Source: Candidatus Bipolaricaulis anaerobius
GTDB taxonomy: Bacteria > Bipolaricaulota > Bipolaricaulia > Bipolaricaulales > Bipolaricaulaceae
NCBI RefSeq assembly: GCF_900465355.1
Contig: NZ_LS483254.1
Span: 744,001-808,000, forward strand
Direction of reading: 5' to 3'
Length of the DNA: 64,000 nucleotides
A program made the translations under genes and the position numbers. This document shows positions 55,519 to 61,221 of the stretch, piece after piece. How positions within the stretch are numbered: position 1 is the first letter of the stretch; the number at the start of each line of letters is the position of its first letter. Under the pieces are notes generated by a model that was not told where the DNA came from, ran no database searches, and saw only the letters and a program-made list of their open reading frames with translations.

Positions 55519-56103
55519 TCAACCGTACGACGAGGTCGTCGTCGACTCCTTCCCCGTGCAGTGCCCGGGAGCCCCAGAGTCCTCAGCGTTGGCCAGGCGC
55601 GCTGCCGCCTCGCGGGTCCTCGGCGACGGGATCCCACCGAGGGGGAACCCACCTCGAACGAGGCGGAGCTTGGCTCCGCTGATCTCGGCGGCATGGCTCG
55701 CCGTTCGTTCCACGCCGGGGTAGGCGCACCCTAAGATGAGCACACCGCCCTGCGGCGTGGCTATCACCAGTTCGTGTTCCCGTACCGTACGGCCCATCGT
55801 CCCCATCGACAAGAGCGTTCCTCCAAGGTCGCAGGGCTCGTCCACGAGGTAAACCCCGCGCCTCGTGCCCGCTGTCGGAGGTGGGAGGCCATCCCCTCCG
55901 GGGCCCACGCGCGTACCCCTGTGGCCTTCTCTAGCACGTAGGGGAGCCTGCCGACGTGGTTGCAAGCGGCATGGTGAAGATGTCAGTGATGGGGGCCAGG
56001 TCCACGTCCATGGCCTGTGAGTTGTGCGCGAGCACCAGCCGATCTGACCCGGTATCGAATAGGAGTCTGCATTCCCTCATTTCGACGAGGGCGCAGACTC
56101 CCC
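55519..56103 (-). pseudogene. Decayed MBL-fold metallo-hydrolase
   Basis: Minus-strand pieces in different frames line up with the MBL family found next to Mrp/NifX genes: GVCALVE with CRLLFDTGSD (N terminus), then GRLPYVLEKATGVRAWAPEGM, then HELVIATPQGGVLILGCAYPGV and LRLVRGGFPLGG, and GHCTG near the end. At least two frame changes and a stop interrupt it. The metal motif HxHxDH is lost, GCAHPG has become GCAYPG and GGFH has become GGFP, so it could not bind metal even if translated. This fills most of the gap between Mrp and the ferredoxin. Confidence 0.7.
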
Positions 56104-56162
56104 CATCCCCCGCGGAGAGGGGGATAGGCTACGCTGTCGTACGGGACGAGAACGTGCATCAG

Positions 56163-56486
56163 CTAGCTCAACGCTCCGGTCGGACACCCGGGCAGGCACA
56201 TCCCGCATCGCCGGCAGAGGGCCGAACTCACCCACGCTTTCCCATCGCCCATCTCGATTGCCCGGTGTGGGCAGGCATTGGCGCATTGTCCGCACCCGAT
56301 GCACTTCGCCATATCCACGATGGGAACGCCGGTCTCCGACGTTGCGGCGGCTCTGAAGCGCGCTCCCGGGGCAGCCATTCCCTGCGCGCCGCCCCCGCCG
56401 AGCCTTCTTCCCCAGCCGCGGCCTCCGCTGCGACCCAGCCCCCTGCCTCAGCCGGCAAAAGGTCCAGTTCCGTCACCCTGCGGCAT
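56163..56486 (-). CDS. Two-cluster ferredoxin with an in-frame TGA near its N terminus
   Basis: From ATG 56486, which has AAGGAGG six bases upstream, the frame reads MPQGDGTGPFAG, TGA (56448-56450), then GRGLGRSGGRGWGRRLGG and on into a ferredoxin. MPxGDGTGP followed by a Gly/Arg-rich stretch is the usual N terminus of small proteins in NifX/Mrp clusters (DUF5320-like). The ferredoxin part has CIGCGQCANACP and CRRCGMCLPGCP, so two 4Fe-4S clusters. Counting the TGA as one residue gives 107. Translation could instead start at ATG 56378, making an intact 71-residue ferredoxin, but that start has no ribosome site. Options are a nonsense mutation, TGA readthrough or selenocysteine. Confidence 0.65.
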
Positions 56487-56558
56487 CGCTTTCCTCCTTC
56501 GCCGTACGCAATTCGCGTCCAGGGAGGGCCCGTTTTCTAGCTTCACCGCTAGCCTCGC

Positions 56559-56960
56559 TCATCGCTTCCTCCTTTTGGCCACTTGGGCCAGGCTCGTCGC
56601 CTCCAGGAACGCCACGATCTTTTGCCGCACCGGGTCCCACAGGGGCGCCAGGGGGCAATCCTCCTGCCCTCCACAGGGGGTGAGGGAGAAGGGGCAATCC
56701 AGCATGAGCCGGTCCCCTTCCACTGCCCTGATCGTCTCGGCCAGGGAGATCTCCTCCGGGGGGTGGGCGAAGGCGAGGCCGCCCCGTTTGCCCCGGGTGG
56801 AGGTGATGATCCCGGCCTGCACCAGGGGGGGGATGAGCTTGGCCAAGAACGGCTGGGGGATCCCGGCAGCCTGGGCCAACTCCCGGATCTTGAGCGAGCG
56901 ATCCCCGGCAGCCAGCTCCGTCAGGGCCATGATCGCGTACTTTGCGGTACGGGAGAACAT
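56559..56960 (-). CDS. Rrf2 family regulator with a three-cysteine Fe-S motif
   Basis: A 133-residue regulator. TAKYAIMALTELA begins the winged helix; LKIRELAQAAGIPQPFLAKLIPPLVQAGIITSTRGKRGGLAFA is the recognition and wing region. DCPFSLTPCGGQEDCPL gives three cysteines (Cx6Cx5C), as in IscR/NsrR-type cluster sensors. ATG 56960 is chosen; a TTG two codons earlier is possible. It has a strong promoter with a palindrome between the -10 and the start, so autoregulation is likely, and the neighbouring ferredoxin and Mrp genes are natural targets. Confidence 0.88.
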   Translation of the reverse strand: MFSRTAKYAIMALTELAAGDRSLKIRELAQAAGIPQPFLAKLIPPLVQAGIITSTRGKRGGLAFAHPPEEISLAETIRAVEGDRLMLDCPFSLTPCGGQEDCPLAPLWDPVRQKIVAFLEATSLAQVAKRRKR

Positions 56961-56966
56961 GTTCAA

Positions 56967-59794: not shown

Positions 59795-60255
59795 CGTCTT
59801 TCGGGCCACAAGCACCGTAAAGCCCGCGGAGGCATCGTAACCCTCCCGGGGAAGTTCAAGTTCGGTAACTTGGCCTGGCGGCTGAAACAGGGTGGAGACG
59901 CAGTATTCAAGTCGAAAGCTTGTCTCTGTAAGCAATGCTTCGAGCTCGTCCAGAGTGTAGAACAGGGCATGGGAGTAGAACGGATGCCCCCTCTTCCCCT
60001 CCTCGACATAGAGCCTACCCCAGGGGCCATCTCCAATAGCTTTCTGGACGGGGCAATGCTCACGCCGATCCCCAAGCTTTCGGCGAACCGGCCGCTCCCT
60101 ACCCCGACCTCGAGCCAGGGCCGGGGAGTGCCGAAAGGACTGCGCGAAACGCCTCAAGTTCGATCTGAAACGGAAGGTTTCCCTCCTCATCAAACCAGGC
60201 GTCGTACCGTTCGGCCAGCCGATCGAACAGTTCTTCGGTCCCTTTATCCTCCAGG
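59795..60255 (-). pseudogene. Decayed SAM-dependent methyltransferase
   Basis: Pieces of a class I methyltransferase lie in three frames: ELFDRLAERYDAWFDEEGNL near 60240, PWLEVGVGSGRFAESLGIG (motif I) near 60110, then YVEEGKRGHPFYSHALFYTL and ELEALLTETSFRLEYCVS further on. At least two frame changes separate them, and no single frame spans the gene. The gene lies directly after the radical SAM gene on the same strand. Composition is less GC-rich than in the housekeeping genes. Confidence 0.7.
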
Positions 60256-60258
60256 GAA

Positions 60259-61221
60259 TCACCCCGCACTACGGCCGGAGAGCTTGCGCAGGTAGAACCG
60301 CTCTCCACGATAGGTGAGCTCGACGAGCTTTCCCTCTGCAAGAAGTCTTCGCACCACTTCCCAGGCGGCGCGGTCTCTTGCCAGGAGTTCCTGTACGGCT
60401 TGCTTGCGCATGGGGTGAACGGCGGTGATGGAGAGGAGATCTTGGACAGCGTCCCCAATAGTGGAGAAGGCATTTCCCTCGTAGCCGATGAGGAGCTCCA
60501 CTCGGGGAAGGCGTTCGCTGAATAAGGCATAGGCACGGGCCACTGCACCTTCGTCCGCGGGCTTAACCCACGCCTCTGCCGGCGGCCGCATGGGGATCGC
60601 GATGTAGGCGATAGCCGGTTCCAACTCTGCGAGGAGCTTGGCTGTCTTTTCGAGCTCCGCGGTGTCCTCATTCAAACCCTGGATTAGCATCGTCTCGCTG
60701 GCGAGCGTTCCTCGGAAAGTGCGGGCGAATTCCAGCAGACCCTGTTTGATTTCAGCCAGGTCGAGTTCCTTGTGCGGCCGATTGATCCGCCGCCAAACCG
60801 GTTCACTTGCTGCATCCACCTTGAGGGATACCCAATCCGCCTGGGAAAGCTCCTCCCGGACGGCTTCGCGGAAGATGAGCGAGCTGTTGGTGATCACGGC
60901 GACGGGGATGCTTAATTGCTTCAGCAACTCGATCTCTTGGCCCAGGTTTAGGTCCAGGGTGGGCTCCCCGTCCGGGACGAATGTCAAGTAGTCCACCGGC
61001 TCATCCTTCCTCCGCAGCTCGCTCAGCCTCGCTTCCACCGCCCGGATGATCTCCTCCGGATCGTAGAACGCATCCCGGTCCACCTGCATCCGGAACGTGC
61101 GGCCAAGTTGACAATAGACGCAGGAATAGGTGCAAATCTTTGGGGGGATGTTGTTGATCCCCAAAGACCTCCCCAGCCGCCGCGACGGCACGGGTCCAAA
61201 TGCGACCTCCACCGTGTTCAT
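60259..61221 (-). CDS. Radical SAM protein
   Basis: A 320-residue enzyme. FGPVPSRRLGRSLGINNIPP leads into the cluster motif CTYSCVYC (Cx3Cx2C), and FVPDGEPTLDLNL is the SAM-binding GEP-like region. The C-terminal 70 residues (MRKQAVQELLARDRAAWEVVRRLLAEGKL) resemble a winged helix. This group (COG0731-like) is common beside MinD/NifX genes in anaerobes; its reaction is unknown. ATG 61221 overlaps the stop of the MinD-like gene, so they are coupled. Confidence 0.85.
   Translation of the reverse strand: MNTVEVAFGPVPSRRLGRSLGINNIPPKICTYSCVYCQLGRTFRMQVDRDAFYDPEEIIRAVEARLSELRRKDEPVDYLTFVPDGEPTLDLNLGQEIELLKQLSIPVAVITNSSLIFREAVREELSQADWVSLKVDAASEPVWRRINRPHKELDLAEIKQGLLEFARTFRGTLASETMLIQGLNEDTAELEKTAKLLAELEPAIAYIAIPMRPPAEAWVKPADEGAVARAYALFSERLPRVELLIGYEGNAFSTIGDAVQDLLSITAVHPMRKQAVQELLARDRAAWEVVRRLLAEGKLVELTYRGERFYLRKLSGRSAG

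Follow-up and report, generated by a model that had tools for sequence, protein, structure and literature searches.

A ferredoxin gene probably interrupted by a nonsense mutation at codon 13, in a decaying module of a Bipolaricaulota bacterium

A ferredoxin gene of the two-[4Fe-4S] type in a Bipolaricaulota bacterium carries an in-frame TGA as its 13th codon, very probably a nonsense mutation that arose by a C-to-T change of CGA to TGA; the gene belongs to a decaying module. We favour this explanation because the same-genus orthologue in genome G005 has CGA (Arg) at this codon, because neither selenocysteine machinery nor a UGA-reading tRNA was found in the genome, and because the flanking module is damaged. 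The gene lies in a stretch of 64,000 nucleotides (referred to here as the window), which is part of a single-contig genome of 1.32 Mb that is 97% complete. An earlier sequence-only reading of the window had picked out the TGA and considered three possible explanations, namely selenocysteine, readthrough and a nonsense mutation of recent origin.

The ferredoxin gene and its in-frame TGA

The gene occupies positions 56163-56486 of the window, as had been reported; it is encoded on the minus strand, which had not been stated. From the ATG at 56486 to the final TAG stop ending at 56163, the frame translates as MPQGDGTGPFAG, the TGA (56448-56450, minus strand), GRGLGRSGGRGWGRRLGGGGAQGMAAPGARFRAAATSETGVPIVDMAKCIGCGQCANACPHRAIEMGDGKAWVSSALCRRCGMCLPGCPTGALS and the terminal stop. 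The original ATG is preceded by a ribosome-binding site, AAGGAGGAAAGCG (56487-56499, minus strand), and the MPxGDGTGP start of the protein is that of its orthologues in other genomes, confirming both the ribosome site ahead of the TGA and the fit of the preceding residues to the family. The claim that the frame stays open past the TGA was equally sound: translation continues without interruption through a Gly/Arg-rich linker into a two-cluster ferredoxin, in which none of the eight cysteines is missing. This domain contains two CxxCxxCxxxCP motifs and matches Fer4 in Pfam (2.3e-15), and is a real two-[4Fe-4S] ferredoxin.

Codon 13 in orthologous ferredoxins

A search for the leader pattern MPxGDGTGP in 100 genomes of the phylum identified 17 places. 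Alignment of close relatives at the TGA codon, which the sequence-only reading had recommended, finds a sense codon there. Six orthologous ferredoxins are intact (L069, L071-L075). Their codon 13 reads CGT, CGA, CGT, CGT, GGA and AGG, encoding Arg in five and Gly in one, and neither Cys nor a stop is found in any of the six. TGA is likewise absent from codon 13 in all other leader-pattern matches in the 100 genomes. Glycine occupies the corresponding position in another leader-bearing ferredoxin (L079) and in zinc-ribbon-like proteins sharing the leader, none of which has Cys or a stop there.

In the DNA alignment, the same-genus orthologue of G005 reads GGT CCT TCT GCG GGA CGA GGC AGG at the site where the window reads GGA CCT TTT GCC GGC TGA GGC AGG, and the stop is therefore explained by one C-to-T change relative to the CGA of G005. 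A sense codon in a close relative thus faces a stop here, as in a nonsense pseudogene. A close orthologue is kept in three of 12 same-genus genomes, and the length of the leader differs greatly between orthologues. The Gly/Arg-rich leader itself, MPxGDGTGPxGxG, is common to ferredoxins and to the zinc-ribbon-like proteins, which are of about 75 residues (L076-L078, L080-L085) and belong to another family of the class.

A decaying gene neighbourhood

In G005, the end of a radical-SAM gene overlaps the start of the ferredoxin gene, which is followed by genes for an MBL-fold hydrolase and an Mrp-type ATPase. A block of ~3.7 kb lies between the radical-SAM gene and the ferredoxin both in the window and in G007, the window's nearest relative (ferredoxin domain 94% identical). 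This block comprises a damaged methyltransferase, a DUF364 gene, an ABC transporter and an Rrf2-family regulator (56559-56966, minus strand; Pfam PF02082 and synteny). From the G005 alignment and the ORF lists, the stretch just before the window ferredoxin (56473-56550, minus strand, far limit approximate) resembles a remnant of the radical-SAM 3′ end that would once have overlapped the ferredoxin start. On the other side, the MBL-fold hydrolase gene following the ferredoxin is a pseudogene (55519-56160, minus strand; tblastn with an intact homologue from L022). It is frameshifted and without its metal-binding motif in both the window and G007, which share this damage, and it carries an internal deletion in G005. 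An apparent frameshifted SAM-methyltransferase remnant, assigned by eye, is present beside the DUF364 gene (59800-60262, minus strand), and G007 is without 69 bases at this site.

The 5′ end of the ferredoxin gene has also been lost in G007, independently of the window. A deletion of ~290 bases joins Rrf2 to the linker, removing the ferredoxin leader together with the TGA site, and the join reads CTGGCCGAG followed directly by GCAGG. At the ends of this deletion, the window has GGCCGAG on the Rrf2 side and GGCTGAG on the ferredoxin side. Since the junction sequence, GGCCGAG, gives a seven-base microhomology only if the ferredoxin codon was CGA, the deletion suggests that CGA was the ancestral codon 13. 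The Rrf2 gene of G007 (L064 9187-9420, G007:C41) is frameshifted as well as cut by the deletion joining it to the ferredoxin. We rejected the possibility that Rrf2 and the ferredoxin are fused in G007, as the two frames differ.

The proposal of a nonsense mutation in a decaying region, one of the three put forward originally, is thus supported by the CGA of G005 and by the independent damage to the MBL neighbour and to the ferredoxin of G007. A plausible course of events is that the ~3.7-kb block came between the ferredoxin and its radical-SAM partner, that the ferredoxin and the following MBL hydrolase lost their role after this separation, and that both would now be decaying. The UGA ends translation here, leaving at most a truncated ferredoxin of 71 residues initiated from an internal ATG at 56378. 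On this reading, the nonsense mutation is young and the case is one of ordinary gene decay.

The meaning of UGA in this genome

The sequence-only reading had also proposed looking for selA, selB, selC and selD. A search of the whole 97% complete genome found no SelA, SelB, SelD or tRNA-Sec above curated cut-offs. Matches below the cut-offs comprise ordinary tRNAs and one weak SelA match of 35 residues; from length and context, we infer that the others are translation GTPases and PurM/HypE-type proteins. SelB over the cut-off is absent from 59 of the 60 genomes searched (the window's own and relatives). The one genome that has it, G051 (G051:C64:8967-10832, L068), is from another family of the class, and this family seems to use selenocysteine.

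Among the genome's 46 tRNA genes, each of which was located and read with ARAGORN, the anticodon TCA does not occur, and tRNA-Trp has CCA only. The prfB gene, encoding release factor 2, is present, and of the 42 long ORFs in the window that do not overlap, 19 end in TGA; several of these 19 have clear Pfam domains. UGA therefore terminates translation in this genome, and we found no mark of an alternative code, be it a UGA-reading tRNA, loss of release factor 2 or loss of TGA stops.

The sequence following the TGA

An inverted repeat described as beginning nine bases past the TGA, GCTG-GGTCG-CAGC, is indeed present (56427-56439, minus strand), but the SECIS role considered for it did not stand up. 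The bacterial SECIS model places the apical loop 16-37 nt after the UGA (PMC13188914), whereas the loop of this repeat is only 12 nt away, and the repeat is absent from the computed fold. Compared with shuffled sequences, the 50 nt from the TGA have no clear extra stability (z = -1.27), and the 50 nt after the codon fold more stably in the CGA orthologue (-23.0 kcal/mol) than in the window (-18.1 kcal/mol). Around the TGA, a fold of 96 nt shows some stability (z = -2.62). This was set aside as a signal, as the leader is GC-rich and, over the 50 nt after the codon, the orthologue with the sense codon folds no less well. The hairpin is a by-product of the GC-rich Gly/Arg leader.

Selection on the remaining frame

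Between the window and G007, the ferredoxin has three synonymous and six nonsynonymous changes (dN/dS 0.68), while dN/dS is 0.14-0.44 for six nearby genes. The ferredoxin value is the highest of those compared, although the difference is not significant (nonsynonymous to synonymous changes 6:3 vs 88:125 in the neighbours, p = 0.17). The eight cysteines and the open frame after the TGA are kept in both genomes and, given that the difference in dN/dS is not significant, it is not proven that function has been lost altogether. The frame remaining from the internal ATG (56163-56378, minus strand; ORF list, Pfam and sequence) encodes 71 residues with both 4Fe-4S motifs, and AGGGA directly adjoins the ATG as a weak ribosome site.

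Alternative explanations

Insertion of selenocysteine at the UGA, directed by a SECIS just downstream, can draw on the small inverted repeat with its GGUC-type loop, but we reject it as having almost no chance of being correct: the 97% complete genome has neither sel genes nor tRNA-Sec above cut-off, the orthologues have Arg or Gly and never Cys at this position, the loop is too close to the UGA for a bSECIS, and the fold after the TGA is ordinary and less stable than that of the CGA orthologue. Programmed readthrough of the UGA, or its reassignment to an amino acid, would account for the open frame beyond the TGA. However, prfB, the ordinary use of TGA stops and the lack of a suppressor-type anticodon among the 46 tRNAs all argue against it, no relative has TGA at codon 13, and the site is deleted altogether in the nearest relative; we consider this explanation highly improbable. 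Reassignment of UGA is rejected, and the readthrough initially envisaged is without support.

A sequencing or assembly error, with a sense codon as the true codon and the gene intact, would require only that the window be one C-to-T change away from the orthologous codon, as it is. Yet the gene that follows is clearly a pseudogene, with damage that G007 shares, so that the local decay does not depend on the base at the TGA, and we regard an error as improbable. It is somewhat less unlikely that the gene is alive, the nonsense mutation having removed only a dispensable Gly/Arg-rich leader from a 71-residue ferredoxin that is now made from the ATG at 56378. This would fit the intact eight-cysteine frame in two genomes whose leaders were lost by different routes, and the great variation in leader length among orthologues; set against it are the poor ribosome site, with AGGGA abutting the ATG, a dN/dS exceeding that of every other gene in the comparison, albeit not significantly, and the death of the partner MBL gene. 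Such an internal start is compatible with a nonsense mutation and differs from plain decay only with regard to the loss of function. Parallel shedding of the leader, by nonsense mutation here and by deletion in G007, with the shorter ferredoxin kept via an internal start, is a slightly more doubtful proposition still.

Significance and comparison with known systems

The case matters little alone, beyond clearing a false selenoprotein candidate. It illustrates that a conserved frame past a TGA can simply reflect a young nonsense mutation, and it provides a small example of an operon arm decaying stepwise after other genes have separated it from its partner genes.

The selenoprotein that invites comparison is HgcB, a ferredoxin listed as such, with its UGA in a GVGU motif (PMC13188914). 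Both HgcB and the window gene are ferredoxins with an in-frame UGA; HgcB, however, needs the Sec machinery, whereas in the window the UGA replaces Arg and the machinery is absent. The gene also resembles the small two-[4Fe-4S] ferredoxins of Bipolaricaulota (for example those of G005, G026, G019 and G013), which have the same Gly/Arg-rich MPxGDGTGP leader and Fer4 domain and, in G005, similar radical-SAM, MBL and Mrp-type ATPase neighbours. These leader-bearing ferredoxins have Arg at codon 13 (Gly in G029), in contrast to the TGA of the window copy. With bacterial nonsense-mutated pseudogenes, finally, the gene shares a single CGA-to-TGA change, decaying neighbours and patchy retention within the genus; it differs from them in that its ferredoxin domain is still open, and residual function from an internal start is possible.
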